In this document: positions 2,382 through 23,948 of the stretch, piece after piece | Position numbering within the stretch: position 1 is the first letter of the stretch | Layout of the letters: each line of letters starts with the position of its first letter | The notes under the pieces: model-generated | The model's database searches: none | Seen by the model: the letters and a program-made list of their open reading frames with translations, nothing else | What the model was told of the DNA's origin: nothing | Assembly: GCA_007124945.1 (NCBI GenBank) | Contig: SLED01000235.1 | Coordinates: 1-39,408 of the forward strand | Source of the DNA: Salinibacteraceae bacterium | GTDB lineage: Bacteria > Bacteroidota > Rhodothermia > Rhodothermales > Salinibacteraceae | DNA length: 39,408 bases | Reading direction: 5' to 3' | Made by a program: the position numbers and the translations under genes

Positions 2382-3128
2382 TTAGAAGTGGTATGCGCCT
2401 TCTTCGTCGCCAAGATCTGTTGCGCGAAAGTTTTCTCGGGCAGCCAGCACTTCGGGCATCTTCTCGCCGGGAGGCAGGTGTACGAGCAGAAGACGCCGGG
2501 CCTGCGCTTTCGCTGCGACTTCCGCAGCCTGCGATATCGAAGAATGGCCGTCCCCTTCACCATTTGCCTCATGCACGAGGATATCCGCCTCGTGGGCAAG
2601 ACAGGCAATATCTGGAGCCGGTTCTGTATCACACGAGTAGGCCACGCTTCCGCCGGTAAACTGGCTTTCAACACGTAATCCGATGACCGGTACACCGTGG
2701 ATTCCGGGAGACGCGGTTATTCTCCACGTCTCATTCTCCAGCACACTTGCGTTAGCCTCAAGCTCTACTTCATTCCACTGGAGCTCGGGCATGCCATCCC
2801 AGCCACTCGTATCAAAGGTGTTGAACGTCGCTCGGGCTTGCTCCAGGGCCGAGGAAATGCCATAGATGGGGAGCGGCCTGTCTCTTCCGGCCAGCCATAG
2901 TTTCTCAATGAGCAGCGGGAAGCCGCTCACATGATCGGGATGTTGATGCGTGATGATGAGCGCATCGATTGAATCGACCGGCAGTCCGGCAGACAGCGTG
3001 CGGTGAATTACGTCGCCACCGCAATCGACGAGAATGGTGGAGCCGTGCTCGTGGAATCCGAGCATGGTGGTGGTGCGGTGCGGATCGGTATACGCCGCAC
3101 CGGTGCCGAGCAGATGGAGAGTGGCCAT
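2382..3128 (-). CDS. RNase Z-like metallo-beta-lactamase-fold hydrolase
   Basis: A 248-residue cytoplasmic metal-dependent hydrolase of the metallo-beta-lactamase superfamily, RNase Z/ElaC-like branch. The N-terminus LHLLGTGAAYTDPHRTTT is the usual first strand. The zinc motif HxHxDH is intact (HQHPDHVSG), the later ligands appear in AYSCDTEP and in ILVHEAN, and the final histidine is in LLLVHLPPG. The protein is shorter than tRNase Z (about 300 residues) and I see no clear exosite arm, so it may act on another phosphodiester, for example cyclic phosphates or small nucleotides. It lies 12 bp downstream of the polyprenyl synthase on the same strand, so the two are probably co-transcribed. Substrate unknown. 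Confidence 0.85.
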   Translation of the reverse strand: MATLHLLGTGAAYTDPHRTTTMLGFHEHGSTILVDCGGDVIHRTLSAGLPVDSIDALIITHQHPDHVSGFPLLIEKLWLAGRDRPLPIYGISSALEQARATFNTFDTSGWDGMPELQWNEVELEANASVLENETWRITASPGIHGVPVIGLRVESQFTGGSVAYSCDTEPAPDIACLAHEADILVHEANGEGDGHSSISQAAEVAAKAQARRLLLVHLPPGEKMPEVLAARENFRATDLGDEEGAYHF

Positions 3129-3140
3129 CGGTAAGCTGGA

Positions 3141-4169
3141 TTAACGTGAGCGAGCAACCGTGAAGGCGACAAGGTCTACGAGCGCGTCCCGGGCCGGAGT
3201 AGGTGGCAGCGAGGCGAGTTGATGCAGGGCATCCCGGGCGTGCTGCCGCATCGCATTTCGCGCGTAATCGATACCACCTCGCTCCTGTACGAAGCGCCGA
3301 ATACGCTTAATGTCGTTCCAATCCTTCTCGTCCTGCCGAACGATCTTTAGAATCGCCCGGCGCTCCTTCTTAGAAGAAGAACGCAGGGCATGAATCAGTG
3401 GCAACGTGATCTTTTTCTCCTGCAGATCGATCCCGAGCGGTTTGCCAACATCTGCGGTGCCGAAATCGAAGAGGTCGTCTCGAATCTGAAAGGCCAATCC
3501 CAGAGACTCTCCGAACGCTCGCATCTGCTTAATGCGCTCCTCCGATGCGTCCACACTATAGCCGCCGGACATCGTGCAGGCAGCAATTAATGACGCTGTT
3601 TTGTCGGAGATAATCCGATAGTACGTATCCTCATCGATATTTAAGTGACGGGACTTTTCAATCTGGAGCAGTTCCCCCTCGCTCATACGGCTAACGGCCT
3701 CAGAGAGGATGTGCAGTAGCCGGTAGTCTTTGTGAGAAAGCGAGAGTAGCAGGCCCTGGCTAAGAAGGAAATCCCCCATCAGCACCGCGATTTTATTCTT
3801 CCAGAGCGCGTTGATCGAGAAGAGGCCACGACGCTCCTGCGCATCGTCCACCACATCGTCATGCACGAGGGTGGCCGTATGCATTAGTTCGACAAGCGCT
3901 GCGCCACGGTAGCTTGTTTCTGTGATACCGCCGCAGGCCTTGGCTGTAAGCAGGACCAGCGTTGGGCGGATGCGCTTCCCTTTCTGGCGAAGGATGTACT
4001 GCGTGATCTTGTCGAGCAGCCCGACCTCCGAGCGCATCGCTTCGCGGAAGTACTCGTCGAATTCTTTGAGCTCATCAGCTACGACGCGTTGAATGTCGTA
4101 GAGTGAGGGAGCGGGACTGTCCAGTACCTCCGCGGACAGCTCTGATGATGACAGTGGAGAGTCGGCCAT
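3141..4169 (-). CDS. Long-chain trans-polyprenyl diphosphate synthase
   Basis: Makes the all-trans prenyl side chain of quinones by adding isopentenyl units to an allylic diphosphate. The 342-residue protein has both aspartate-rich motifs: the first, HDDVVDD, at about residues 103-109 and the second, QIRDDLFDF, at about 228-236. KGKRIRPTLVLL (about 63-74) is the substrate-binding segment with its conserved lysine and arginines. The fifth residue before the first motif is a small alanine, which in this family goes with long (C35-C45) products; this is inference. A 20-residue N-terminal extension precedes the catalytic fold. The RNase Z-like hydrolase follows after 12 bp. Likely name ispB/hepT-like; exact chain length cannot be read. 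Confidence 0.93.
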   Translation of the reverse strand: MADSPLSSSELSAEVLDSPAPSLYDIQRVVADELKEFDEYFREAMRSEVGLLDKITQYILRQKGKRIRPTLVLLTAKACGGITETSYRGAALVELMHTATLVHDDVVDDAQERRGLFSINALWKNKIAVLMGDFLLSQGLLLSLSHKDYRLLHILSEAVSRMSEGELLQIEKSRHLNIDEDTYYRIISDKTASLIAACTMSGGYSVDASEERIKQMRAFGESLGLAFQIRDDLFDFGTADVGKPLGIDLQEKKITLPLIHALRSSSKKERRAILKIVRQDEKDWNDIKRIRRFVQERGGIDYARNAMRQHARDALHQLASLPPTPARDALVDLVAFTVARSR

Positions 4170-4268
4170 CGCGTTGACTTTCAGAAATAATTGAAATCAA
4201 CCGAATATACGACACGACCGATGCACTGTTTGGGGTTGCGTTGGGGAAGAATATGCGTAGATCCACTA

Positions 4269-5294
4269 TCAGCCGAAGGAATAGGCACTTCGGCGGAGCA
4301 AAAACAGGAAGAAGGGAACGCCGCAAAGCGCCGTTACCACACCTACTGGAAGCTCTGTTGGAAGGACAGACCGGGCAAAGAGGTCTGCCCAGACGAGGAA
4401 AAATGCCCCGGCCAGAAAGCTAAGTGGCACGAGTTTGCGGTGCGGGACTCCTACGAGCATCCGCACGGCGTGTGGAACGATTAATCCTACAAATCCGATA
4501 GCTCCGGAGATGGCCACGAGCGTGCCCGTTACAAGGGCGGCAAGGCCAATAAGCGCCTTCTTGGCCACCTCAACGCGCACCCCGAGGCTCTGTGCAGGCT
4601 CCTCACCCACCAGCATTGCATCGAGCGGCCTCGCCAGAGCTACGAGTGCTACGAGCCCGAAAGCGGTGACAATCGTTGGGGCGATTAGCATCTCCCACCG
4701 CATCCCCGAGAGTGAGCCCAGCAGCCAGAAAAGTATGGCCCTGAGTTTGTCGGGTTCGGGTGACGCCAATGTGATAAACGACGTTACCGAAGCCATCATG
4801 GCTGACATCGCTACGCCGGCCAGCAGTAATCGGGCGACCGAGATGCCCGAACGCCCCCGGGCGACCAGGTAGACGATGGTGATGGCCAGCAGGCCGCCGA
4901 GAAACGCTGCTACCGGCATGGAGAACGTCCGGGCGATTACAGCCGGGAGGAAGCCGAGATAGAAAAGCGATGCCCCGGCTGAGGCTCCGCTTGAGATGCC
5001 CAGAAGGTAGGGCTCCGCCAGCGGATTTCGCACCAGCGTCTGCATGGCCACGCCAATGATGGAAAGGCCACCACCGACGAGCATGGCCGCCAGCACACGG
5101 GGCATCCGGAGGTCCCACACAATGCGATGGACGGTCTGGTCCGGCGCCTCCAAACCGCCAAGCCCGAGACGATAGACCAGGACGTGGTAAACGTCTCCAA
5201 TGTCTACCGAGGCGCTACCAAAAGCTACCGCCACACCCAGCGACACGGCCAGTGCCGCCAGCAGAACACCACCAAGTAGTAGGGGGCGTGTCAT
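4269..5294 (-). CDS. FecCD/BtuC-type ABC transporter permease
   Basis: A 341-residue polytopic inner-membrane permease of the FecCD family, which imports cobalamin, haem or ferric siderophores. Hydrophobic segments run throughout, consistent with the ten-helix BtuC fold. Typical family strings are visible: RVLAAMLVGGGLSIIGVAMQ, NPLAEPYLLGISSGA and IGFVGLIVPHAVRMLVG (the last includes the loop that docks the ATPase). Its ATG overlaps the stop of the upstream binding-protein gene by four bases (ATGA), so the two are translationally coupled. No ATP-binding subunit follows: the next gene downstream, 100 bp away, is the polyprenyl synthase. The ATPase must be encoded elsewhere or shared with another system. 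Confidence 0.94.
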   Translation of the reverse strand: MTRPLLLGGVLLAALAVSLGVAVAFGSASVDIGDVYHVLVYRLGLGGLEAPDQTVHRIVWDLRMPRVLAAMLVGGGLSIIGVAMQTLVRNPLAEPYLLGISSGASAGASLFYLGFLPAVIARTFSMPVAAFLGGLLAITIVYLVARGRSGISVARLLLAGVAMSAMMASVTSFITLASPEPDKLRAILFWLLGSLSGMRWEMLIAPTIVTAFGLVALVALARPLDAMLVGEEPAQSLGVRVEVAKKALIGLAALVTGTLVAISGAIGFVGLIVPHAVRMLVGVPHRKLVPLSFLAGAFFLVWADLFARSVLPTELPVGVVTALCGVPFFLFLLRRSAYSFG

Positions 5295-6277
5295 GGCAGG
5301 TTTGGGAGGTAAGCTTCGGGCAGGGCCAGTGAATCTTGATGTATGGCGCGGGCCATCTTCTTCACGCCGCGAAGCACGCGCGGGCCGGGCCGCGTAACGA
5401 GCGACGGATCGATCGTGTAGACCCTATCTTCGGCCACCGCCGGCACGATGTCCCAGGTAGGATGCTTTGCAAGAAGGTCGCTCGCGCCATAATCTGGGCC
5501 GAAGGTGCCGATGATGATATCGGGTTTCTCGGTGAGCACGTACTCTTCGCTCAGCACGGGAGCAGCCATCGGAAAGCTGGACGTCACACTCTTTCCACCG
5601 GCCACCTCAATGAGCTCGTGTACGTAGCTGCCCTCACCATACGAATAGAGCGTTTCGTCTCCGATCAGAAAGAGAACCGTCGGGCGGTGCGAAGCCTGTG
5701 AGGTAAGCGAGCGGATCTTTTCGAGCTGGGCCATCAACGTGTCAGCAGCTGTCTCAGCCGTGTCGGTCCGACCCGTCAATTCGCCAAGCGAACGCAGCGT
5801 GCGCCCGATATCCTCAAGCGAACGGTATTCAAGAAAATAAGTCGGCACACTGACGGCGGCAAGGGTTTCCGCATCGCGTTCGTTGTTTACTTCCGCATTC
5901 GCCAGAACGAGGTCTGGCGTAAGCTCCACGATTCCCTCGTAGTCAAGGGGCAAGGCGTTTATACGGGGCAGCGACGCTACCACATCTGGCGGGTAGTCAT
6001 CCGAGACGCCCACGCCAACAAGTGTTGCGCTGGCGTCGATGAAAACGAGTTGCTCGGTAATGTTGGGAGCCAGCGGAATAACCCGCTCAGCCGGGATTGT
6101 GAGCGATACATCCCGTCCGAGGTCATCCTGGCGCACATCCTGTTCCTCGGTATCGGATGCGCACGCAGCAAAGAGCAGCAGGAGCGAAGCCAGGCTTGAA
6201 AAAAGGAGACGGCGCAATGAGCAGTAGAATGATTGACGAAAAAAAAGGCTTGTGGTGAATGCAAGGGAATCGGGCAT
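5291..6277 (-). CDS. BtuF-like periplasmic substrate-binding lipoprotein
   Basis: Substrate-binding protein for the adjacent permease. A lipobox LLLFAAC follows a hydrophobic stretch, so the mature protein starts at that cysteine and is anchored by lipid. The mature part begins with the family opening DDLGRDVSLTIPAERVIPL and APNITEQLVFI, followed by VGVGVSDDYPPDV, ELTPDLVLAN and the long connecting helix between two lobes, typical of cluster A-II proteins such as BtuF and FepB. The start is uncertain: ATG codons at 6325 and 6277 give unusually long signal peptides, while an in-frame TTG at 6217 would give a compact signal (MRRLLFSSLASLLLLFAAC). None has a clear Shine-Dalgarno. Cobalamin is my preferred ligand from the motif style; iron chelates are possible. 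No recognisable B12 riboswitch lies upstream. Confidence 0.88.
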   Translation of the reverse strand: MPDSLAFTTSLFFRQSFYCSLRRLLFSSLASLLLLFAACASDTEEQDVRQDDLGRDVSLTIPAERVIPLAPNITEQLVFIDASATLVGVGVSDDYPPDVVASLPRINALPLDYEGIVELTPDLVLANAEVNNERDAETLAAVSVPTYFLEYRSLEDIGRTLRSLGELTGRTDTAETAADTLMAQLEKIRSLTSQASHRPTVLFLIGDETLYSYGEGSYVHELIEVAGGKSVTSSFPMAAPVLSEEYVLTEKPDIIIGTFGPDYGASDLLAKHPTWDIVPAVAEDRVYTIDPSLVTRPGPRVLRGVKKMARAIHQDSLALPEAYLPNLP

Positions 6278-6525
6278 GATCCATGCGAATACATTGATGA
6301 GCGTCAACGGCAGAGAGATTCGCAACGCTCCGGAACGAAATCACCTGAACCGTCGCTGGTGACTCCACCTTGCCTCTATGGTAGTGGTAGAATGCACCTG
6401 TCCTGGATTTAATGTGGGTGAAATTTGCCGATAACCCCCCCGAGCCGCGTCATGCCAACTGCCCCGGGATGCCGCGCTCAACAAATAATTGATTCCTGTC
6501 CACGCGCTGCCACACTCCTGAAGTT

Positions 6526-7947
6526 ATGAAGAAGCGCATCTTCATCGTCGATGATGAGCCCAAAATCGGCGATTTGTTTGTAAACGTATTACGCCGAGAT
6601 GGCTTCGAGGCGAAGTCTTTCGTAAATCCGGGAAGTATGCTCGCGGAGGTGGATGAGGGTATGATCCCTCACGTCATCATCGCCGATCTGATGATGCCCG
6701 ACATGAATGGGATCGAGCTGCTGGAGGAGCTTGACACTCGTGACCTCTCGTTACCCGTGCTCATCATGACAGCTCACTCGTCGGTGCAGACCGCGGTGGA
6801 GGCGATGCGGCTTGGGGCGTTTCACTACCTTCAGAAACCCGTAAATCTGGAGGAAATGCGGGCGCTCCTGGATAAGGCGCTGGCCCTCTACGACGAGGAC
6901 ACCATCGACGAATCGCCTTCCGGGGCATCACAGACCGAGCGTTCGGGCAACAAGAAGAAGTCTGGAGGTAAGGGGCAGTTCACGCTCGACAGTATTCTGG
7001 GCGATAGCCCGGCAATCCAGGAGGTACGCGATACGATAGAAACGCTCCGTTCGGTGCCCAACACCATCGTGCTGATAACCGGAGAAACCGGCACCGGAAA
7101 GAATCTTGTCGCTCGCACCATCCACGATACGTCGGCCTACAATGCGGGCCGGTTCATGGATATCAATTGCGCTGCTCTGCCGGATAACCTGTTAGAGGCT
7201 GAGCTTTTCGGGTACGAGAAGGGCGCGTTTACGGATGCCCGAGACTCGAAACCGGGACTACTGGAGGTGGCGGATGGGGGAACCGTCTTCCTCGACGAAA
7301 TAGATTCTATGAGCATGTCGCTTCAGGCGAAGTTGCTCTCTTTTCTGGAGAGTCGCACCTTTCGGCGGTTAGGCGGCGTCGACGATATCCGGGTTACGAC
7401 CCGCATTCTCTGTGCAACAAACTCCTCGCTGGAAGAGAAGGTGGCCGAGAAGGAATTCCGGCGCGATCTCTATTATCGAATAAACGTCGTGAAGCTGCAT
7501 CTCCCACCACTCCGCACGATGGGGGACGACATCATCACGATCGCCAATGAAGTTCTCCAGTCCTTTGCCAACGAGTTCGATCGCCCCCTCGAAGGTTTCA
7601 CCGAAGAAGCCATCGAGAAACTGAAGACGCACCCGTGGACGGGAAACGTTCGTGAGCTTCGCAACGTGATCGAGCGCGCGACGATCTTCGCCCAGTCGGA
7701 CAAGATTACCGCCAATGAATTGCTGTTGCCCGATCCCGACAATCCACTCCTCGGTGGTGCTACAGGCGGGGCGTTCCGTTTTCCTGAACGGCGTTCACTC
7801 GAAGATCTCGAGCGAGCCTATATCAAGCATGCACTGGAGACGATAGATGCCACCTACGCTGAGATCTCAGAGATGCTTGGAATCTCCAAAAAAACATTGT
7901 GGGAAAAGCGAAAGCGCTACAATCTGGATGAAGCCGTAGATGCGTGA
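6526..7947 (+). CDS. NtrC-family sigma-54-type response regulator with GAFTDA loop
   Basis: A 473-residue three-domain regulator. Residues 1-120 form a receiver domain with acidic pair D9/D10, phospho-acceptor D54 (in ADLMMPDMNG), T82 and K104. Residues about 155-385 form an AAA+ domain: Walker A GETGTGKN (186-193), Walker B GGTVFLDEID, and the arginine-finger region FRRDLYYRINV. The C-terminus is a Fis-type helix-turn-helix (YAEISEMLGISKKTLWEKRK). The sigma-54-contact loop is GAFTDA (233-238) instead of the classical GAFTGA. A hydrophilic, lysine/serine-rich linker of about 30 residues joins receiver and AAA+. No histidine kinase is adjacent, so it is an orphan. Target genes cannot be deduced. 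The 248 bp between it and the divergent btuF-like gene should hold both promoters, but I could not identify either with confidence. Confidence 0.94.
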   Translation: MKKRIFIVDDEPKIGDLFVNVLRRDGFEAKSFVNPGSMLAEVDEGMIPHVIIADLMMPDMNGIELLEELDTRDLSLPVLIMTAHSSVQTAVEAMRLGAFHYLQKPVNLEEMRALLDKALALYDEDTIDESPSGASQTERSGNKKKSGGKGQFTLDSILGDSPAIQEVRDTIETLRSVPNTIVLITGETGTGKNLVARTIHDTSAYNAGRFMDINCAALPDNLLEAELFGYEKGAFTDARDSKPGLLEVADGGTVFLDEIDSMSMSLQAKLLSFLESRTFRRLGGVDDIRVTTRILCATNSSLEEKVAEKEFRRDLYYRINVVKLHLPPLRTMGDDIITIANEVLQSFANEFDRPLEGFTEEAIEKLKTHPWTGNVRELRNVIERATIFAQSDKITANELLLPDPDNPLLGGATGGAFRFPERRSLEDLERAYIKHALETIDATYAEISEMLGISKKTLWEKRKRYNLDEAVDA

Positions 7948-8058
7948 TTGCACGATGGATTGCACCTATTACTGGCATTGGCGCATAAAAGACCGCTCTT
8001 TCCTACATGAAGATTTAGGACAGATCTTTCGTCAACTGTACTACTTGTAGTGGATTAC

Positions 8059-13788: not shown

Positions 13789-13921
13789 AGAAAGCGTGGG
13801 TTCGGAGGGGATAGCACCGTAAGGTCGGTTCTGAGAAGGCGCGGATCAAGTCTGCGCACAACTCTTTAGCAAATGTTGCCATGCGCTTCTACTGTACGTG
13901 CCTGACCTGACTCCTATCCAT

Positions 13922-14632
13922 ATGATGTACGTTTTTTGCCTGGATGATTATCACGTGGGTGATCCGCATTTTCTACAGTCGCTTGCGCGAGAGATAACGG
14001 GTAGCAGACCGAACCCGCCTCGCATTCTGATGGTGCACGGCAGCGGCGAGGCTGCCGAGCGTGCGCTCGAAGGCCAGGGCAGGTTTCGCAAACGAACGGA
14101 AGGGGTCCTTGCCATAGGGTCGGCAGAAGAGGCGGCCATTGTGGATCGCGCAACGCGGCAGGCCAACCAGAAGGTGGTAGACACATTGACCGACGAGATC
14201 GTGCCGGCGGTAAGCGTGCAGGGCGATGCGCGCAATCTCTTTGTGCACACCGATTCCGGGGTACAGGTAGGCTCTACGGGGTGGCTACGAGATCTCGTAG
14301 AGAATGAGGGGGTACCCGTTATCTCCAGTATTGCACGTCATCCGCAGACGGGTGGCGCGCGCGAGGTGAGCCTCGCGGAAGCAGTTGTGGCGCTTGCCGG
14401 CGCCCTCGATTCTAATGACCTGCAGATCGTGGCTTTTGTTCGGTCGCAGGGGCGCAACCTGTTCGATAAGCGCGACACGCCTATTGGTGTACGCGACCTT
14501 CCTGATGAGAAAGCAATTCCTGCAAGGGATACAGTAGTTCGGGCCGTAGAACGCGGGCAGCAGGTACTTCTTACCACGCCAACCTTCTTTTTTGGGTCAG
14601 ATTCCGGGCGTGGCAGGGCGGTTATAGCGTAG
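13922..14632 (+). CDS. Degenerate amino-acid-kinase-fold (acetylglutamate-kinase-like) protein
   Basis: A protein of about 236 residues resembling N-acetylglutamate kinase in segment order: RILMVHGSG (for VVVHGGG), a QANQKVVDTLTDEIVPAVSV stretch (for QVNKEIV...AVGLSG), NEGVPVISSIARH (for GYIPVIAPI) and AEAVVALAGAL (for ADTVAGAIAAAL). Several positions that matter for catalysis in this fold are altered: there is no N-terminal K-x-G-G lysine, and the N-x-x-A-D motif reads S-L-A-E-A. It may be a regulatory pseudoenzyme or have a changed activity. The start is one of two ATGs at 13922/13925; an upstream GTG at 13898 would add eight residues. No other arginine gene is adjacent. Confidence 0.6.
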   Translation: MMYVFCLDDYHVGDPHFLQSLAREITGSRPNPPRILMVHGSGEAAERALEGQGRFRKRTEGVLAIGSAEEAAIVDRATRQANQKVVDTLTDEIVPAVSVQGDARNLFVHTDSGVQVGSTGWLRDLVENEGVPVISSIARHPQTGGAREVSLAEAVVALAGALDSNDLQIVAFVRSQGRNLFDKRDTPIGVRDLPDEKAIPARDTVVRAVERGQQVLLTTPTFFFGSDSGRGRAVIA

Positions 14633-14799: not shown

Positions 14800-14982
14800 A
14801 TGAGCAATCGTTATCAGGAGCTTCTCGACCTCGTCGGTGAGGCAGAGGAAGACTTCGACAAGTTCTACAACAATGGCGTAAAGGCAGCTGGGACGCGAGT
14901 CCGCAAGGTGATGCAAGAGCTGAAGAAGAAAGCTCAGGACATCCGTGTTGAAATTCAGGATATTAAGAAGAACGAGCTGTAA
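14800..14982 (+). CDS. Histone H1-like (Hc1-type) mini nucleoid protein
   Basis: A 60-residue, lysine- and glutamate-rich helical protein matching the short histone H1-like family of Bacteroidota (N-terminal part of the Chlamydia Hc1 family). Diagnostic strings are EEDFDKFYNNG, AAGTRVRKVMQELKKKAQ and IRVEIQDIKKNEL. It is expected to bind DNA non-specifically and compact the nucleoid. The lysine/alanine-rich tail of chlamydial Hc1 is absent, as is usual for this short form. It has a consensus promoter, a perfect AGGAGG Shine-Dalgarno and its own terminator, which together suggest high expression. Confidence 0.9.
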   Translation: MSNRYQELLDLVGEAEEDFDKFYNNGVKAAGTRVRKVMQELKKKAQDIRVEIQDIKKNEL

Positions 14983-15008
14983 GCTGCTTTTACAAGCTCT
15001 GGAACGGC

Positions 15009-15046
15009 GAAAAGGCTGTGTCCTCGGGGCATGGCCTTTTCTTTTT
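15009..15046 (+). terminator. Rho-independent terminator after the histone H1-like gene
   Basis: Perfect 8-bp stem GAAAAGGC (15009-15016) with GCCTTTTC (15034-15041), a 17-nt loop and then TTTTTC. It starts 26 bp after the stop, which also argues that the downstream DUF3078 gene starts after this point. Confidence 0.75.
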
Positions 15047-15091
15047 CAATACCTGGGAGCGCTACGTACTTCCCGCTTACGCCACAGTCCC

Positions 15092-16027
15092 GTGTTACCA
15101 AACTTTCTCCGGTTTAAAAGCCTCGTACCCTTTCTTTTTGCACTTCTGTTGTTGCCAGCCATTGCCTGGGGGCAGGATGTGGAGATGACGGCCGCCGCCG
15201 ATGCAGAACAGGCCGCCGACACCGTTTCCGTGAACCAGTGGATAACAGGCCTACGATTCGACCTATCCGCTACCCAGGTCGGCTTTCAAAACTGGGCCGA
15301 GGGGGGGACAAACTCTTTTTCTGTCAGCACAAGACTTGATGGTCACGCACTTCGTGGAGGTGAAGACTGGCGCCAGTCCTACCGCATTCGTTTAGGCTTC
15401 GGGGTTATCAACCAGGAAGACGATGGCTTCAGGAAATCGGAGGATATCGTACGCCTCGCGGCCGCCTTTCTCAATCGAGGGGAGCGAGGATTCTTTCACA
15501 CATTTCAGCCCACAATCTCTGCAGAGCTGCGCACTCAGTTTGCATCAGGCTTCAATTTCAGAGAAGATCCGTTCGGTGAAGACCGAGATCCTCCGGTGAA
15601 GGTGTCAGAGTTTTTCTCGCCAGCTACGATTACGCAATCTGTCGGACTCACCTATGAGCCAATCAGCTGGTTTCAGCAGCGTCTCGGTGTAGGTGCCAAG
15701 CAAACCGTTGTTGCGGTGCCTCGCCTGCGCGAGCTATACGGCGTCGATCCGGACTCACCTATTCGGTTCCAGTTAGGTATGCAGTCGGACACGAATGTGG
15801 ATGTACAGCTTGCTGAAAATATCCGCTATATTTCCGGGCTCACGCTCTTTGCTGCATTCGACCAGGATGACCTGCCTGACATGCTCTGGGAGAACCAGAT
15901 ACGCATGTCGGTAAACAGTTTTCTGGATGTGCGTTTTGAGTTTACGGCGTTCTTCGACAGGGATGTAAGCCGCGCACTTCAGATGAAGGAGGTGCTTGCT
16001 GTGGGTGTATCGTTTGATCTAATTTGA
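15092..16027 (+). CDS. DUF3078 family outer-membrane beta-barrel protein
   Basis: The product of 311 residues has an N-terminal signal peptide (FKSLVPFLFALLLLPAIAWG, cleavage before QD) and alternating amphipathic strands, including a C-terminal strand ending in hydrophobic/aromatic residues (VLAVGVSFDLI). The segment SATQVGFQNWAEGGTNSFSV is the hallmark opening of DUF3078, a Bacteroidota family of predicted outer-membrane barrels with no known function. The frame is open back to 14945, but that stretch overlaps the histone gene and its terminator, so I take the GTG at 15092, which places the signal peptide at the N-terminus. The next gene starts within about 25 bp. Confidence 0.85.
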   Translation: MLPNFLRFKSLVPFLFALLLLPAIAWGQDVEMTAAADAEQAADTVSVNQWITGLRFDLSATQVGFQNWAEGGTNSFSVSTRLDGHALRGGEDWRQSYRIRLGFGVINQEDDGFRKSEDIVRLAAAFLNRGERGFFHTFQPTISAELRTQFASGFNFREDPFGEDRDPPVKVSEFFSPATITQSVGLTYEPISWFQQRLGVGAKQTVVAVPRLRELYGVDPDSPIRFQLGMQSDTNVDVQLAENIRYISGLTLFAAFDQDDLPDMLWENQIRMSVNSFLDVRFEFTAFFDRDVSRALQMKEVLAVGVSFDLI

Positions 16028-16050: not shown

Positions 16051-18339
16051 ATGCAGGATACCTCCAACTCGTTGTGGAAGCCGGTGCGCTGGCCTGCTCT
16101 GGCCTATGCGTTGACGGTATGTGTCGGCTGGTTCTTTCCCCTTCTCGATAGACCGGGGCCATTTTCTGCGGCCCTTGTCGCCACAGTGGCATTCTTTGTA
16201 GCGGGATTGGCCAGTCTGCGTGCATTTCAAGCAGGGCGTCAGATTGCGCCTGTGGTACGTGTACAGCTGCTGGGCGTCATTATTGTGCCGATGGTTCTGT
16301 ACGGTCTCGGCCTCCTCTGGACTCCCTCCTGTGGATATCTGGCGGGAATCGGGTACTGGTTCCTGTTTCCGGCTATAACCGTCGTCTTTGCGGTTGCGCT
16401 CGCGTATGCGATCTCGGGCACGTCGGTGAAGCGGCCTTTCGCTTTACTCGCGCTTATCGGAGGAGCGATTATCGTTTTGGGTCCACTGTACGATCTGGGG
16501 CTGCACCCTCAATTCTACACCTACAATCATGTTTTCGGTGGGGTGCTCGGTCCCATTTACGATGAGGAGCTGACGCTGCGGACGGGCTTGTTGTGGTTTC
16601 GATTCATGACGATTCTCTGGGCCGCGCTGTTTGTTCTGCTTGGCATCTGGTTGAGGCGCGGATTTCCTGTAGCGGCGTCGCGACACTGGTGGTTGGCTGG
16701 TCCCCCGGCCGTAGCCCTGCTTGCGCTACTTCTCGGCATCGCCTATCTCTTCGCTGATCGACTCGGGATTAACACGTCGCTCTCGCAGCTACAGCGGGCG
16801 CTCCCCGGGCACATACAGACGGAGCACGTCGATCTCTACTTCGATCCCGAAGCCATGCACCCCGCGCAGGCAGAGCACTGGGCCCGGTATCACGAGTACG
16901 AAGTGCGCCGAATTACTTCGGTGCTGGAGGTGGAGGTCCAGGACAGGATCGCGAGTTTTCTCTACCCCAACGAGGACACAAAGGCGCGCTTAACAGGGGC
17001 TCGAACCACCAATACCGCCCCTGTATGGCTGGCAACGCCACAGATACACGTGCTGCAGTTTGCTGGTGAACGCGTGGTGTCGCACGAGCTTGCGCACGCT
17101 GTGTCGCGGGAATTCGGGCTGCCAATCATCAACGCCTCACTATCCATCGGTTTGGTAGAAGGTCTGGCGGTAGCACTGGAGCCCGGCATGGGATCGCCGT
17201 CGGTACATGATCAAGCCTTGACGGCGAGAATGATCCAACATGGAGGCGATTTAACGATAGAGGATGAACTTGCCTCCGATCTGGTCCAACGCCTCTCGCC
17301 TGTGGGATTCTGGACAGGGCGAGGCGCGGTGTCGTATACGTTGATGGGTTCATTTATACGATATTTGCTCGATGAATATGGTCCGGCGCCTCTGAAGAGT
17401 GCCTATCCGCGGGCTAATTTTGATTCTGCCTACGGTCGCTCTCTCCAGGATCTTGCGGCGGAATGGGAGGACTTTCTGGAGTCCAGAATACGCGTAAGTT
17501 TGGCTGCCCGGCAGGTTACGCGCGTTCGATTTACACGACCGTCCGTTTTCGAGCTGAGGTGCCCGTTCCAGATACCGCCGGAGCGGAGGGCGTACCGGAA
17601 AGCTGTTGAAGCGCTACGCGCAGGTGAGATGGGCTTGGGGCGACAGCTCGTTAACGAGTCTCTCGCGCATCATGCGGACTACATCCCGGCTCGAAATCTC
17701 TGGGCGTCGTTGCTTCTTATCTCGGGTGATCCGCTTCCGGTCATCGAGTACGTGGAAGGTAGTGAGGACGCTTTTGCTGGCCCATCGCTGGCAGCGCGGC
17801 ATGCGGAGGCGGTTGCAATGACGGGAGGCATCGACCAGGCACAGCAGCTCCTGACGCGCACTCTGAGGGATCTGCCTCCTAACGCACATGCAACCTGGAC
17901 CCAGCTCATGCTTCAACGACTGTTGCTTGCGCATCCAGAGCTGCAGGGGATCGTGCAGCCGGCTCGCAGAGTAGAGGACCAGCTACGCTTGTTGCGCGCC
18001 AGTAGTATCGAGGAAACGCCAGCGGGTCGGCTGCTGCTCGGGCTGACCTACGGTCGTGCGCAGCATTGGGCCGAGGCGCTTGCATCGACATCCGATCTGA
18101 TCGAACATATCAATGCGCTCAATCTCTTGTTAGGCGAGCAGCGACGCCTTGAAGCGTACATCTACCATCAGCGCGCACGCTGGCTCTACGCATCCGGCCA
18201 GATAGACAGGGCGCTTGACGAGCTCCGTCTGTCAAAGCGGATCTATGCTCAGATGGGAGCCAATGATGAGGTATACGCCTTACAGGCTCAGGCTTCATTC
18301 TATATGTGGCTGGAGCAGAGAAGCGTACCGAATTTGTAG
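16051..18339 (+). CDS. Seven-TM protein with gluzincin (peptidase MA-like) domain and C-terminal TPR-like helices
   Basis: A 762-residue three-part protein. Residues about 10-250 contain seven hydrophobic helices (for example WPALAYALTVCVGWFFPLL and AALVATVAFFVAGLASL). A soluble gluzincin-like domain follows, with the zinc motif HELAH at 345-349 and a downstream glutamate, E370 in LVEGLAVAL, fitting the HExxH-(20)-E pattern of peptidase MA-like proteins. The last ~220 residues are helical and repeat-like (RKAVEALRAGEMGLGRQLV; RWLYASGQIDRALDELRLS), suggesting TPR protein docking. I chose the ATG at 16051, preceded by GTGGAG; a TTG at 16024 would overlap the DUF3078 gene. The substrate is unknown. 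No named family with this full architecture comes to mind. Confidence 0.82.
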   Translation: MQDTSNSLWKPVRWPALAYALTVCVGWFFPLLDRPGPFSAALVATVAFFVAGLASLRAFQAGRQIAPVVRVQLLGVIIVPMVLYGLGLLWTPSCGYLAGIGYWFLFPAITVVFAVALAYAISGTSVKRPFALLALIGGAIIVLGPLYDLGLHPQFYTYNHVFGGVLGPIYDEELTLRTGLLWFRFMTILWAALFVLLGIWLRRGFPVAASRHWWLAGPPAVALLALLLGIAYLFADRLGINTSLSQLQRALPGHIQTEHVDLYFDPEAMHPAQAEHWARYHEYEVRRITSVLEVEVQDRIASFLYPNEDTKARLTGARTTNTAPVWLATPQIHVLQFAGERVVSHELAHAVSREFGLPIINASLSIGLVEGLAVALEPGMGSPSVHDQALTARMIQHGGDLTIEDELASDLVQRLSPVGFWTGRGAVSYTLMGSFIRYLLDEYGPAPLKSAYPRANFDSAYGRSLQDLAAEWEDFLESRIRVSLAARQVTRVRFTRPSVFELRCPFQIPPERRAYRKAVEALRAGEMGLGRQLVNESLAHHADYIPARNLWASLLLISGDPLPVIEYVEGSEDAFAGPSLAARHAEAVAMTGGIDQAQQLLTRTLRDLPPNAHATWTQLMLQRLLLAHPELQGIVQPARRVEDQLRLLRASSIEETPAGRLLLGLTYGRAQHWAEALASTSDLIEHINALNLLLGEQRRLEAYIYHQRARWLYASGQIDRALDELRLSKRIYAQMGANDEVYALQAQASFYMWLEQRSVPNL

Positions 18340-18407
18340 AGCGTTTCCACATGCTGGCGAGTTTTCTTATGTTGCATATTCAGTTGATGTAGAGCGCGAT
18401 AGGTGCT

Positions 18408-19745
18408 ATGGTTGGATTTATGCGTTGGTCTTGTTTCGTTTTTGTCGCGCTGCTCGCCGCTATGGCTGTTGGGTGTGCAACCCTGCAAGACGCCGAGGAT
18501 AACGATGGAGACGTGCCTGCGCGCGAGGATGCCCGTGCTCCTTCCCCGGATTATGCAGCCGACGCGGAGGGAATTAAAACTGTACAACTCCATCCAACAC
18601 GGCTTCGGCGCAGCGGCATTCCAATCGATGCGCAGATGCCCGTCGTGAGGCTCGGAACCGGGGATCAGCTCAGGCTCTCGTTTGACCTGATGGAACTCCG
18701 CGGACGCCCCCTCACTGTGCATTTCTATCATGCGAGTAGGGAGTGGGAGCGGCGCCTCTCACCGGGCGAATATATGCGCGGCTTTCAGCGGGACGACCTC
18801 GTCAACTACACCGGCTCGGAGGGTACGACACATAGCTACACGCATTACAGCTACACCTTCCCAAACGAGAATATCGATTTTCTTGTGAGCGGTAACTACG
18901 TGGTCCGCGTTACGGAGCAGGGGAATGAGGATGCCGTCCTCTTCGAACGGTCGTTTTTTGTGGTAGAAGACGAGGCTGACACGGATCTGCTGTTCGACAG
19001 GTATACGCTGCCCGGATTCTCCGGTCCCGGAGTTCAGCCCATATTGCGGGTGCGCCCCCCGCGAGATCTGGAGGGGCGCGTGTTCGACTTTACCGCGTGC
19101 TTCGTCAGAGATGGAAGGATGGGCGATACACGCTGCGTCGATCGTCCACAGCTCATCGAGCAGCCCACCCTGCGGTTTGAACTTCCACGCCGCCACGTTT
19201 TCGAACCGCTCGGAGGCGACTATCGGCTCGACCTTCGCGTTCTTCGGCCAAACTATCGCATTTCATCGGTTGATCGTTCGGATGTCCCCTTCCGCGTTCA
19301 GCTTGAGCCCGATCTCGCACGCTTCCCGGACCCCGGTACCGACGTGCCGCTCAACGGACGGATTGTTCTCTCGCGTGTTACGGCCGTACCTGATCCTGCC
19401 ACGAACGGCGAATACGTTCGTGCGCACTTTCGCTACGTTCCGGTGGATGAGGAGCGACTTGACCGGGACGTGGCCATCGTGGGGAGCTTCAACAACTGGC
19501 GCACCGACAACCAACGTGTAAGGCTCGAGTGGAATGAAGCAGGTGGGTACTACGAAGGTTCAGCGCTTGTCAAGCAGGGAGAATACGAGTACCGCTACGT
19601 GGCGGAGGACGATCGGCAGCGGCAAAGCCTCGCCGAAGGGATGCCTCCCCGACGCTCAACCTATACCGTCTTCGTGTATTACCGCGATCCACAGCTGAAC
19701 TCCGATCGCCTGATAGCTGTAACTGACGGCGCAGCACGCTCGTAG
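18408..19745 (+). CDS. DUF5103 lipoprotein, type IX secretion system plug-like
   Basis: A 445-residue lipoprotein: signal MRWSCFVFVALLAAMAVGC with lipobox AVGC. The body matches DUF5103, whose Flavobacterium member is the plug that closes the SprA translocon of the type IX secretion system when no PorV-cargo complex is bound. The family hallmark is the early segment about preferred ligand-like strands (QLRLSFDLMELRGRPLTVHF), then HASREWERRLSPGEYMRGF and HYSYTFPNENIDFLVSGNYV. A C-terminal Ig-like/E-set part resembling CBM48 follows (VAIVGSFNNWRTDNQRVRL, GEYEYRYVAED). The start could also be the ATG at 18420. No other T9SS gene lies in the window, so its T9SS role is inferred from the family. 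Confidence 0.85.
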   Translation: MVGFMRWSCFVFVALLAAMAVGCATLQDAEDNDGDVPAREDARAPSPDYAADAEGIKTVQLHPTRLRRSGIPIDAQMPVVRLGTGDQLRLSFDLMELRGRPLTVHFYHASREWERRLSPGEYMRGFQRDDLVNYTGSEGTTHSYTHYSYTFPNENIDFLVSGNYVVRVTEQGNEDAVLFERSFFVVEDEADTDLLFDRYTLPGFSGPGVQPILRVRPPRDLEGRVFDFTACFVRDGRMGDTRCVDRPQLIEQPTLRFELPRRHVFEPLGGDYRLDLRVLRPNYRISSVDRSDVPFRVQLEPDLARFPDPGTDVPLNGRIVLSRVTAVPDPATNGEYVRAHFRYVPVDEERLDRDVAIVGSFNNWRTDNQRVRLEWNEAGGYYEGSALVKQGEYEYRYVAEDDRQRQSLAEGMPPRRSTYTVFVYYRDPQLNSDRLIAVTDGAARS

Positions 19746-19763
19746 CGCAGGCCATGCGCTTTT
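19744..19763 (+). terminator. Short candidate terminator after the T9SS plug gene
   Basis: A 6-bp stem AGCGCA/TGCGCT (19744-19749 with 19755-19760) with a 5-nt loop overlaps the stop codon and runs into TTTT. It is short, so efficiency is doubtful. Confidence 0.35.
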
Positions 19764-19808
19764 CCGGGCCGTTACTTGATTATCGGCCATGTAAGTGTTT
19801 TGATATAA

Positions 19809-19829
19809 AGCGCAGTTCCGTACTGCGCT
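19809..19829 (+). promoter_or_regulatory. Perfect hairpin upstream of the metzincin lipoprotein gene
   Basis: AGCGCAGT (19809-19816) and ACTGCGCT (19822-19829) form a perfect 8-bp stem with a 5-nt loop, 44 bp before the ATG at 19873. No T-tract follows, so it is more likely a leader structure or operator than a terminator. Confidence 0.35.
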
Positions 19830-19872
19830 ACTGCAATTCTTCCCTACTACCTTTACCGTCTTTTCTACTCTC

Positions 19873-22365
19873 ATGTATTTTGGATACCGAAGCATTCCAG
19901 CAGTGCTGTTATGTATGGCACTGCTGTTTACAGGCTGCGCCGGTGCGCAACAGACTACCGACGAAGCACCCGAAGCAACCGAACAGCAGGCTGAAAGGCC
20001 AGACAATGATAACGACTTCAAGCCCTACAGCGAGGTTGTAACCGACGACGCTGAAACCGAGGAGGGCCTTTTCGACACACACCGAATTGACGACCAGCTG
20101 CTCTACGAGATACCAGATTCGCTTCTCGGTAAAGACATGTTGCTGGTCACCCGCATCGCCAAAACGGCCGATAACATCGGGTATGGCGGTATGAAGGCCA
20201 ATGAAATGGTCATTCGCTGGGAGCGACAGTTCGATCGAATTTTACTTCGCGTTGCGTCATACACCAACGTCGCTGATCCCGACGAGCCCATCTATCAGGC
20301 TGTGCGTCAATCCAATCTTGAGCCCATCATCATGTCGTTTGACATTGAGGCTCTGAGCGAGGACGGTGAGGGCACCGTAATCGACGTAACGCAGCTTTTT
20401 ACCTCTGATGTACCGGCGATCGGGCTGCAGCAGGGACGCCGGCAGAGTTTTGGCGTCCGCCGACTCGATAACGACCGTACGTACCTTGAGTCCGTTCGCA
20501 GCTTCCCTGAGAACATCGAAGTGCGTCATTTGCTGACATACGAGGCGCAGAGCCCACCGTCCAACAGTTCCACAAACACGATTTCGCTGGTAATGAACCA
20601 GTCGATGGTGCTGCTTCCCGCAGAACCGATGCAGCGTCGTCTTGCCGATGAGCGCGTGGGATACTTCAGTATTGAGCAGGTTGATTTCGGTAGAGATGCG
20701 CAACGGGCTGAGCGGCGCACGTACATCTCCCGCTGGCGCCTGGAGCCGAGCGACTGGGACGCATTTGAACGTGGTGAATTGGTGGAGCCCAAAGAGCCCA
20801 TCGTTTATTACGTTGATGCTGCTACACCCGAAAAGTGGCGTCCTTACCTCAAGCAGGGCGTATTTGATTGGAATGAGGCATTTGAAGCAGCAGGCTTCAA
20901 GAACGCCATCAAAGCCAAAATGGCACCAACACCTGAAGAGGACCCGGACTTTAGCCCGGAAGATATCCGCAACTCAACGATGCGGTACTACGCTTCCGAA
21001 ACACAGAATGCGTTCGGGCCACGCACCGTAGACCCCCGCACCGGGGAGATTATCGGTTCGGATATTGGTTGGTACCACAATGTGATGAATCTCCTGCGTA
21101 ACTGGTACTTCGTGCAGACGGCAGCGGCCAATGAAGAGGCGCGCGGCGTCGAGTTTGAGGAGGAAGTGATGGGCGAGCTTATCCGGTTTGTCTCGGCTCA
21201 CGAGGTAGGGCATACGCTTGGACTTCCTCACAACTGGGGCTCGTCCTATGCCATCCCGGTAGATTCACTTCGTTCACCGACGTATACCTCCGATCACGGA
21301 ACGGCAGCCTCCATCATGGACTATGCACGTTTCAATTATATTGCGCAGCCAGAGGATGGAGTCGAAAACTTCATGCCGCGCCTCGGAGAGTACGATCTCT
21401 GGTCCATTGAGTGGGGATATCGCCCGATTGCTGAGGCGGACAATCCGGATGACGAGCGGCCAATCCTGAATGAATGGATTAAGGAGCGCGCGGATGATCC
21501 GCGTTACTTCTACGGCCGGCAGTCTGCCAACCCAATCGATCCGCGCTCGCAGCGCGAGGCCCTCGGCGATGATGGAATAGAAGCAAGTCGCCTTGGGGTG
21601 GCGAACCTGCAGCGCATCCTGCCGAACGTCCTGGAGTGGACTCACCAGGAAGGAGAGAATTTCGAAACGGCTGAGGAAATCTATGGCCGCATTATCGCCC
21701 AGTGGGATCTGTACATGGGCCACGTTGGCCGGTACATCGGCGGGGTTTACGAGAATCACAAGACGTATGACCAGGATGGTGCGGTCTACGAGATGGTCGC
21801 CGCTGATCGCCAGCGAGATGCGATGGACTTCCTGAATGAGTTCGTCTTCCAGACGCCTGAATGGATGCTGGAGGATGAACTGCTCGATCGCGTTGAGCAC
21901 GGCGGGTTTATCGAGCGCATCCGTCAGCGTCAGGTTAATGTGCTGAATCTCATTCTGGACCCTCAGCGGATGGCCCGCCTGATTGAAGGTGAAGCCCGCC
22001 ATGGAGCCGAAGCGTATCAGGTCAGCGATATGCTCGCCGATATGCGGGCCGGAATCTGGACGGAGCTCGGACAGGCTGAGGCAATCGACCCGTTCCGTCG
22101 TAACCTGCAACGAAGCCACATCGACAGGCTCGGGCATCTGATGACGGCAGAGGTGGATACACCACCGGCTCAGTTCAGAGACTTCCTGAACTTCACACCG
22201 GTTAACGTGGCGCAGTCCGATATCCGCGCTTTCGTTCGTGGCGAGTTGAACGATCTTCGGAGCGATATAGAGCGCGCAGAACGCCGGAGCAATGATCGCT
22301 CCACGCAGCTGCATCTGCAGGACGCGCTCGTCCGGATAAACGATATTCTGGAAGGCGACGCATAG
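19873..22365 (+). CDS. Secreted metzincin-type zinc protease lipoprotein (DUF5117/DUF5118-like)
   Basis: An 830-residue lipoprotein with signal peptide and lipobox LLFTGC. It follows the layout of the large Bacteroidota zinc-protease family annotated DUF5117 and DUF4953: an early domain with LLYEIPDSLLGKDMLLVTRI, then ISRWRLEPSDW and VYYVDAATPEKWRPYLKQGV-like strands, then the catalytic site. The metzincin motif HEVGHTLGLPH is at 443-453 (H443, E444, H447, H453), followed by a Met-turn SIMDYA with M482. The acidic, Q/E-rich stretch after the lipid anchor is probably a linker. The C-terminal ~300 residues are helical. Substrate unknown; family members are periplasmic or surface proteins. It lies 127 bp after the T9SS plug gene and probably has its own promoter. 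Confidence 0.9.
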   Translation: MYFGYRSIPAVLLCMALLFTGCAGAQQTTDEAPEATEQQAERPDNDNDFKPYSEVVTDDAETEEGLFDTHRIDDQLLYEIPDSLLGKDMLLVTRIAKTADNIGYGGMKANEMVIRWERQFDRILLRVASYTNVADPDEPIYQAVRQSNLEPIIMSFDIEALSEDGEGTVIDVTQLFTSDVPAIGLQQGRRQSFGVRRLDNDRTYLESVRSFPENIEVRHLLTYEAQSPPSNSSTNTISLVMNQSMVLLPAEPMQRRLADERVGYFSIEQVDFGRDAQRAERRTYISRWRLEPSDWDAFERGELVEPKEPIVYYVDAATPEKWRPYLKQGVFDWNEAFEAAGFKNAIKAKMAPTPEEDPDFSPEDIRNSTMRYYASETQNAFGPRTVDPRTGEIIGSDIGWYHNVMNLLRNWYFVQTAAANEEARGVEFEEEVMGELIRFVSAHEVGHTLGLPHNWGSSYAIPVDSLRSPTYTSDHGTAASIMDYARFNYIAQPEDGVENFMPRLGEYDLWSIEWGYRPIAEADNPDDERPILNEWIKERADDPRYFYGRQSANPIDPRSQREALGDDGIEASRLGVANLQRILPNVLEWTHQEGENFETAEEIYGRIIAQWDLYMGHVGRYIGGVYENHKTYDQDGAVYEMVAADRQRDAMDFLNEFVFQTPEWMLEDELLDRVEHGGFIERIRQRQVNVLNLILDPQRMARLIEGEARHGAEAYQVSDMLADMRAGIWTELGQAEAIDPFRRNLQRSHIDRLGHLMTAEVDTPPAQFRDFLNFTPVNVAQSDIRAFVRGELNDLRSDIERAERRSNDRSTQLHLQDALVRINDILEGDA

Positions 22366-22389
22366 ATTGCTCCTTTCATCCAACCCACT

Positions 22390-22433
22390 GGCCAGCCGAG
22401 AGCGTTATGCGCTGCGGCTGGCCTTTTCTTTTT
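22390..22433 (+). terminator. Rho-independent terminator after the metzincin gene
   Basis: Perfect 9-bp stem GGCCAGCCG (22390-22398) with CGGCTGGCC (22415-22423), plus an inner AGCG/CGCT pairing, followed by TTTTCTTTTT. It sits 24 bp after the stop and 7 bp before the next ATG. Confidence 0.85.
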
Positions 22434-22440
22434 ATCTGAT

Positions 22441-23490
22441 ATGCTACAATCGTTATCTCATACAGCACCCGAGTCTTTTCGCTTTCACGCGGATGTGATG
22501 CCGTTGATAGCTGAGGCGGCCGAGGAATCGCCCTACTCAGTACAGGTCGAGACGATTGGCCAGAGTCGTGCTGGTCGTGATCTGTACGGGATAACAGCGG
22601 GGGATGGGCCGGTGTCGGTGTCGTTGATTGCTGGCGCTCACGCAGATGAGCCGGTGGGGCCGGAGACCCTGCGAACTCTTCTACTTGCCATGAGCGAGCA
22701 GTCTGCGGCAATGGATGCGCTCCTGAGCGCATGCACGCTGTCCATCATCCCGCATATTAACCCGGACGGAGAAGAGCGAAACCGGCCCTGGATGGAGGAC
22801 TGGCCATCGCTGCAAACCTATCTCAAACGGCGTGTGCGCGAGAAACCCGGAGAGGATTTGGAGTTCGGCTTTCCCGGAATGCGTCCTGAAAACAGGGCCG
22901 TCTCTTCGTTTTTGCGTGCACGTGGGCCATTTCATCTTCATCTAAGCCTGCACGGCATGGGACTCTCCGCCGGATTCTTTCTGCTTATCGAGCGCCGATG
23001 GGGCTTTCGCACCACTGAACTTCAGTCGTCACTTCTCCAACTGGCCGATAGCCACGGACTCGCCCTGCACGACCACAACAGGAAGGGGGAGAAGGGATTC
23101 TTCTATCTCGGTGCCGGATTCAATACCACACCGGAGGGCACAGCCATGCGCACCTTCTTCGATTCAAAGGGGGATCCTGCGATGGCCAGGCGTTTCCATA
23201 TGAGTTCTATGGAATTCGTCCGATCTCTTGGAGGAGGACCACTTTGTCTGGTTACCGAACTCCCGCTCTTCGTGATGGGCAAGGAGGAAAAGGGTACGCC
23301 TGAGAATCCCGAAACCTATCTGGCGTGCCGGACCGCATTGGAGGATGCAATCCTCTCCGGAGACGGAAGCGTTGAGCAGGTGGAAGAGCAGTTTCAGATT
23401 CGTCCGATGCTGCTACCAACGGCGGTGTCGATTCAACTGGCCGTGATAGAAGAGGGCGTCCGTACTGTCTCGGAAGCGCTTCCGGCCTGA
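22441..23490 (+). CDS. M14-family zinc carboxypeptidase-like protein
   Basis: A 349-residue protein without a visible signal peptide, so probably cytoplasmic. The N-terminal half carries M14 signatures: GQSRAGRDLYGI, then HADEPVGPETL (zinc ligands H and E of HxxE), then IIPHINPDGEERNR (the N-P-D-G substrate-binding loop). The third zinc histidine is likely in HLSLHGMG, and the catalytic glutamate in CLVTELPLF. The fold and order match metallocarboxypeptidases and succinylglutamate desuccinylase/aspartoacylase-like proteins. Which peptide or acyl-amino acid it cleaves is not readable. The gene begins right after the metzincin terminator, so it must have a promoter overlapping that region or depend on read-through. 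Confidence 0.85.
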   Translation: MLQSLSHTAPESFRFHADVMPLIAEAAEESPYSVQVETIGQSRAGRDLYGITAGDGPVSVSLIAGAHADEPVGPETLRTLLLAMSEQSAAMDALLSACTLSIIPHINPDGEERNRPWMEDWPSLQTYLKRRVREKPGEDLEFGFPGMRPENRAVSSFLRARGPFHLHLSLHGMGLSAGFFLLIERRWGFRTTELQSSLLQLADSHGLALHDHNRKGEKGFFYLGAGFNTTPEGTAMRTFFDSKGDPAMARRFHMSSMEFVRSLGGGPLCLVTELPLFVMGKEEKGTPENPETYLACRTALEDAILSGDGSVEQVEEQFQIRPMLLPTAVSIQLAVIEEGVRTVSEALPA

Positions 23491-23648
23491 AATTGCGTAA
23501 GCCGTCTCATGAGCTTTCTGTTAATGTTAGTCATCGAAAGCGCTTTTTGCAGCGTTCAGAAGTAGACGATGTACAACCGGATGCAGAGCTTTGCGTGTGC
23601 TGTTACATCCTGCAGTCAAAACCTAACCACCAAGTGCACCGAAGTCCT

Positions 23649-23948
23649 ATGATCAAAAAGAAGCTAAGCCCGAAGGGGCAGTCGATGCGCGTAACGTTTA
23701 CGCTTCCGGCTGACGTTGCCGAGGATAGCATCGCCATTGTGGGTGATTTTAACGACTGGGATCCCGAAGAGCACCAGATGGACCTCCAGCCACGTAATGG
23801 GGTCTGGAAGAAGGGAATCTCGTTTAAGCCTGGCTCCGAAGTGGAGTTCAAATATTACGTTGATGGCGAGTGGTATCGCAACGACGAGGAGGCGGATGCC
23901 TACATTGCCAATGAGCACGGCACGGAAAACGGCGTGCTGCATCTGTGA
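23649..23948 (+). CDS. Single-domain CBM48/isoamylase-N (AMPK-beta-like) glycan-binding protein
   Basis: A 99-residue soluble beta-sandwich of the early-set type found in glycogen branching enzymes and AMPK beta. Diagnostic strings are IAIVGDFNDWDPEEHQM, VWKKGISFKPGSEVEFKYYV and YRNDEEADAY. The aromatic residues W in NDW and W in VW are the expected glycogen contacts. The frame is open back to 23493, but the upstream codons show no matching domain, and the ATG at 23649 gives MIKKKLSPKGQ, a natural start. The role may be glycogen sensing or docking. A related E-set domain is the C-terminal part of the DUF5103 lipoprotein at 18408. Confidence 0.88.
   Translation: MIKKKLSPKGQSMRVTFTLPADVAEDSIAIVGDFNDWDPEEHQMDLQPRNGVWKKGISFKPGSEVEFKYYVDGEWYRNDEEADAYIANEHGTENGVLHL

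Follow-up and report, generated by a model that had tools for sequence, protein, structure and literature searches.

A predicted seven-helix membrane gluzincin with a TPR-like tail in the Bacteroidota

What does a protein do that seems to place seven membrane helices, a zinc protease and a TPR-like tail on one chain? The question is raised by a gene on a contig of a Salinibacteraceae bacterium (SLED01000235.1, assembly GCA_007124945.1). The whole stretch of 39,408 nucleotides is called the window here. The original prediction, made from the sequence alone, read the gene as seven hydrophobic helices followed by a gluzincin active site and a TPR-like tail. The parts that the argument needs are these, with coordinates in the window and residue numbers counted from the ATG.

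16051..18339, + strand: gene for the membrane gluzincin-TPR protein, 762 aa from ATG 16051
16078..16749, + strand: predicted membrane domain spanning residues 10-233, with seven TM helices (AF2 models)
16330..16332, + strand: C94 in the TM3-TM4 loop, proposed to form a disulfide with C504 (139/141)
16504..16581, + strand: TM5-TM6 loop at residues 152-177, on the periplasmic side by prediction, HPQFYTYNHVFGGVLGPIYDEELTLR (AF2 and conservation)
16780..17574, + strand: putative gluzincin protease domain, residues 244-508 (Foldseek, fold comparison, Peptidase_MA_2)
17083..17097, + strand: HELAH, putative zinc-binding motif, residues 345-349 (H345, E346 and H349 in 141/141)
17158..17160, + strand: E370, presumed third zinc ligand (141/141)
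17335..17337, + strand: Y429, presumed catalytic (transition-state) tyrosine (141/141)
17560..17562, + strand: C504, directly past the protease domain, the other half of the predicted disulfide with C94 (139/141)
17575..18330, + strand: TPR-like helical tail, residues 509-760 (AF2, fold and profile matches)

An in-frame TTG at 16024 is an alternative start to the ATG at 16051. The full-length AlphaFold2 (AF2) model has a pLDDT of 88.9 and a pTM of 0.88, and residues 1-510 modelled alone reach 87.1 and 0.86. The full-length model used a 29-row alignment, cut from 33 rows by dropping one row with masked letters, L045 (which has an N-terminal frame break), L062 and L039. In L045 (213-2693) the N-terminal part lies in another frame, with a second match at 229-564, which is either a frameshift or an assembly error. 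From N to C terminus the model has seven membrane helices (residues 10-26, 37-60, 65-87, 96-122, 129-151, 178-203 and 218-233), an alpha/beta protease part at about 244-508 and a helical solenoid at 510-757. The models support one polypeptide that would join all three parts, so the layout held up under the structure prediction that had been proposed for it, the count of seven helices included. The tail is TPR-like as claimed; its length had been put at about 220 residues and is about 250.

The original prediction knew of no named family with this full layout. That still stands, since no model in Pfam or NCBIfam covers the whole protein (for the family-profile searches, among the first 25 families listed). 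With the window protein as the sole query the only Pfam match is TPR_2 at E 0.63, all of its domains fall under every Pfam cut-off, and NCBIfam returns nothing. A PDB sequence search with the window protein found no credible relative. No description of such a protein was found among the papers listed by the literature searches, where subscription journals were mostly out of reach. The viral fold library gave no match at E <= 0.001, the plasmid comparison gave no match, and the promoter and terminator scan stayed close to chance level. Taken singly, the protease and the tail are familiar types of domain; the full layout is without a Pfam or NCBIfam model.

It is worth considering each part by itself. 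The original prediction had staked itself on the central region folding as a gluzincin, and in the model it resembles the M9 collagenases. Foldseek places a Vibrio collagenase at the top (E 1.1e-4), followed by LTA4H (E 0.044). Fold comparison gives a Z of 12.5 to the Vibrio collagenase VhaC over 221 residues (rmsd 3.1 A) and 11.2 to ColH. A protease-only profile found no credible relative in the PDB, M9 collagenases included. Peptidase_MA_2 (PF13485) matches 37 of 48 members searched with their protease part only, at E <= 1 (best 2.4e-8), and the window protein is not one of them. The HExxH at 345-349 (HELAH in the window protein) and the downstream Glu 370, which had been claimed to lie at gluzincin spacing, are kept throughout the family. 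Across 141 sequences H345, E346, H349, E370, G371, D171, G316, F420 and Y429 are all invariant, and W326 is kept in 140. Between H349 and E370 there are 20 residues in 101 of the 141, 22 in 36 and 19 in 4. The predicted fold, the HExxH and the glutamate ligand together mark the domain as a putative gluzincin of clan MA. E370 would hold the zinc together with the HExxH, and we take Y429 to be the transition-state tyrosine by analogy with the M1 peptidases. Conservation of this kind suggests that the family binds zinc and is proteolytically active.

In the tail, residues 508-761 match TPR proteins with a Z up to 15.2, at an rmsd of 19.9 over 217 aligned residues; shorter stretches superpose at an rmsd of 3-4. 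Of 48 members searched, 21 are matched by TPR_19 at E <= 1, the best of them at 4.4e-8. The family profile finds a designed TPR protein in the PDB at 2.6e-50, and the best 60 of 218 PDB matches of the whole-family profile all fall on this part. The tail probably docks substrates or partners; the original prediction had suggested that the protein may be a membrane sensor or a processing protease onto which other proteins dock. It had also proposed a separate search of the three parts. This gave matches for the protease and the tail; for the membrane domain the 25 Pfam families listed, out of 45, include no ABC2 model.

On which side of the membrane would the protease lie? Lysine and arginine average 1.77-2.11 in loops 2-3, 4-5 and 6-7 versus 0.35-0.69 in loops 1-2, 3-4 and 5-6. 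These means come from 81 sequences, a set that takes 40 of the 44 Rhodothermales relatives (of the four left out, one is masked, one is frame-broken and two are short). By this bias the C-terminal parts should lie outside. Two cysteines agree with that placement. C94 and C504 are absent only jointly: the rows that lack one are the same two of 141 that lack the other (L115 of family f26 and L216 of family f44). The chance of such a coincidence is about 1e-4 when the rows are taken as independent. This paired loss points to a disulfide between C94 and C504, which would be periplasmic. The loop charges and the cysteine pair together therefore predict a periplasmic position for both cysteines, the TM5-TM6 loop, the protease and the tail.

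The TM5-TM6 loop deserves attention. Of 13 segments compared this loop (152-177) is the most conserved, with a score of 0.66; the protease core has 0.52, and the TPR tail comes last at 0.27. Y170 is kept in 138 of 141 sequences and D171 in all 141. The same loop has the lowest pLDDT outside the termini, with blocks of 53-68. A loop modelled in this way may become ordered only on dimerisation or on contact with a partner or substrate.

The family reaches well past the window. Relatives are present in 67 of 100 sampled kin. A scan of contigs with the window protein alone, which recovers close relatives only, names Rhodothermales (Salinibacter, Salinivenus, Longimonas, Roseithermus and MAGs). A genome of the same genus (G002) and the MAG Rhodothermaceae bacterium Tc-Br11_B2g6_7 encode identical versions of the protein. 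At E <= 1e-3 the count is 198 of 395 genomes of the phylum, and this includes TPR-only matches, so we use the count from a profile of the TM domain only. That profile matches 131 of the 395, and 130 are kept after a weak match in G374 is set aside. The gene is nearly always single-copy in these carriers. The best strong matches are frames of about 680-815 aa, except two at contig starts (489 and 633 aa), and the few extra matches are weak or are pieces split over contigs. The membrane domain is therefore not seen without the protease in the 395-genome sample. The gene is missing from 16 of 45 genomes of the same family or order and from most of the others sampled, so it must be dispensable. 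A FastTree tree of 141 sequences with a midpoint root has the Rhodothermales (42/42), f18 (31/31) and f26 (24/24) as clades. Family f44 encloses one row of f50, f40 encloses f54 and f24, and the other families with at least two rows are clades. A tree that follows the family labels in this way fits vertical inheritance, and the sequences fit an old family inherited vertically across many Bacteroidota.

The genes on either side of the window gene are both on its strand.

14945..16027, + strand: DUF3078 gene, directly upstream (Pfam E 7.4e-15)
18408..19745, + strand: type IX secretion plug protein gene, directly downstream (NF052315, 170.9 bits, cut-off 100)

A neighbourhood survey had been proposed at the outset. 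It finds envelope genes frequently and gives no one constant partner, as the neighbours vary by lineage. Among 40 loci outside the order MurA is directly upstream in 21 (all three that were checked pass the murA cut-off). The family gene is preceded by a Ser/Thr kinase gene in 14 and followed by a CCA/poly(A) polymerase-like gene in 17, with examples checked by Pfam. A GT9 glycosyltransferase occurs in 6 (two of two checked match Glyco_transf_9), a TPR protein in 5, and a Met-zincin gene in one (L086). Other neighbours are also found: proline dehydrogenase (Pfam, L083), a CCA-type polymerase (Pfam, one locus) and enolase. In L098, L112, L119, L122 and similar outgroup loci of two families the genes run Ser/Thr kinase, MurA, family gene, CCA-type polymerase, TolC/HlyD-like, with a PP2C-like gene in some; these names were given by eye except for the Pfam-checked ones.

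The window holds other genes of note. A diverged amino-acid-kinase gene at 13898-14632 (+ strand) is argB-like at E 3e-8, scoring 33.5 bits where the cut-off is 151.3. Of the 32 Rhodothermales loci, 25 have relatives of it near the family gene. Three different metallopeptidase genes share the + strand from 16051 to 23490 with the plug gene among them: first the gluzincin, then a DUF4953 Met-zincin at 19873-22365 and lastly an M14 carboxypeptidase at 22441-23490. The C-terminus of the plug protein has a weak AMPK1_CBM match (E 0.00096, below the cut-off). A few genes further on, 23493-23948 (+) codes for a small CBM48/AMPK1_CBM protein.

We argue that the best explanation is an inner-membrane protein with an active gluzincin endopeptidase that faces the periplasm and a TPR docking tail, which processes or turns over envelope proteins; we put its probability at roughly 0.6. 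We infer the zinc binding and the proteolytic activity in this scenario, as well as the topology, disulfide, TPR docking, role and substrate. The seven-helix domain would anchor the protease in the inner membrane, with the protease and the tail on the periplasmic side. The TM3-TM4 loop, through the C94-C504 disulfide, and the TM5-TM6 loop would fix the geometry of the protease close to the membrane surface. The tail would recruit substrates or partner proteins, and the protease would cleave or clear envelope proteins near the membrane, whether secreted, outer-membrane-bound or membrane-tethered. Such a role would be that of a processing or quality-control protease. We count the envelope genes among the neighbours (plug and DUF3078, MurA, GT9) for an envelope role, and the inconstant ones (proline dehydrogenase, CCA-type polymerase, enolase) against it.

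One can imagine that the gluzincin fold is kept merely as a catalytically dead scaffold, and TPR scaffolds are common. However, this scenario has to explain why H345, E346, H349, E370 and Y429 are all invariant while the tail drifts to a conservation of 0.27 against 0.52 in the protease core. We consider it very improbable. A second alternative, though still an unlikely one, is that the membrane domain is a transporter-like module derived from ABC-2 permeases, as in the ABC-2/M1 fusions, and that the protease acts on exported material. TM1-6 (about residues 4-208) match NosY and ABCG2 over 190 residues at an rmsd of 3.7-4.1 A with Z of 12.8-13.0, and the fold tool warns that a Z under about 13 in helical bundles may reflect a common arrangement. 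The membrane proteins among the 50 fold matches listed are ones that we take to be of the ABC-2 kind. Relative G005 has a fusion of ABC2_membrane_4 and Peptidase_M1, in a frame cut by the locus end, with an ABC ATPase nearby. ABC ATPase genes also lie 2.6 kb from the family gene on the other strand in two loci of family f40, and elsewhere mostly 5.6-7.5 kb downstream. However, no ATPase gene adjoins the window gene, and hhalign of the TM domain against ABC-2 permease profiles gives 1-2% or less. A PDB search with the TM-only profile found no credible relative either. ABC-2 permeases have an intracellular coupling helix between TM2 and TM3. That loop is 4 residues long in the window model and reaches at least 13 (13-17) in only 6 of 141 sequences, being shorter elsewhere, so there would be little room for such a helix. 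Without profile support we do not claim common descent; in the models TM1-6 resemble ABC-2 permeases in fold only.

The other alternative is that the gene is tied to type IX secretion (T9SS), its neighbour in the Rhodothermales. In 32 loci of this order DUF3078 is directly upstream in 29 and the plug gene directly downstream in 28. Three of the four plug misses are cut by contig ends, and L036 has neither neighbour. In the same order the plug is found in 29 of 29 gene carriers versus 8 of 16 non-carriers. Across 395 genomes 108 have gene and plug, 22 the gene only, 145 the plug only and 120 neither, for an odds ratio of 4.1 (Fisher p 1.7e-8, with kinship uncorrected); the plug is one T9SS marker here, and its models may overlook divergent plugs. 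However, profiles built from the Rhodothermales find no plug and no DUF3078 neighbour in the 40 loci outside the order. L123, L124 and L127 keep DUF3078 and plug adjacent without the family gene; in L125, L126 and L128 the plug alone is found, without DUF3078 or the family gene. Since the gene is missing from the operon in some relatives and 22 of 130 carriers have no plug match, by this one marker it is not a core part of T9SS, and we reject that candidate. We consider the broader tie unlikely. The position beside the plug gene may be operon convenience or a tie specific to this lineage. The Rhodothermales offer a test case for contact between this protease and type IX secretion.

A bolder idea can be built on the preferred reading of a periplasmic envelope protease, and we hold it only tentatively, as an outside chance. 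The ABC-2-like domain, free of an ATPase, could be the gate of the protease. The TM5-TM6 loop with Y170 and D171 would plug or feed the active site, signals from the membrane side or membrane-embedded substrates would control proteolysis, and the tail would pick the targets. If true, this would be a new way of coupling a transporter-type fold to proteolysis. The strictly kept loop and the cysteine pair give exact residues for probing how a membrane domain could control a periplasmic protease. Roughly one in three of the phylum's genomes sampled here carries this uncharacterised putative membrane protease.

How does the protein compare with known systems? Fusions of ABC-2 permeases with M1 aminopeptidases also join a membrane domain to a gluzincin, as in G005. 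M1 aminopeptidases have a GxMEN motif upstream of the HExxH. This motif is found in 0 of 141 family members within 60 residues upstream, which rejects M1 membership. The family also differs in its TPR tail, in having no ABC2 profile match among the families listed and, in the window, no adjoining ATPase gene. Two long M1 frames were compared with the ABC2 models, and a single one of them matches. In locus L239 of a relative, ABC2_membrane_4 and Peptidase_M1 share one frame that is cut by the locus end (2920-8000, - strand), beside genes for a histidine kinase and an ABC ATPase. The M9 collagenases (Vibrio VhaC, ColH) are the best solved fold match, although the family has no sequence-profile match to them in the PDB; they are secreted enzymes. 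Peptidase_MA_2 is often paired with TPR and matches the protease domain of most members searched at E <= 1, though not of the window protein; the match is to the protease only, and the joined membrane domain has no model. BepA (YfgC) of E. coli, an M48 protein, is described in PMC7950410 as a periplasmic protein in which a TPR domain follows the zinc protease domain; its TPR pocket and cavity are required for function, and its active site carries the M48 HPx4R plug. HPx4R past the HExxH is found in only 1 of 141 family members, and not in the window protein (HP alone occurs in 6). This plug motif being absent, the family is not M48. BepA, with its protease and TPR domains in the periplasm, is the nearest known system in its way of working.
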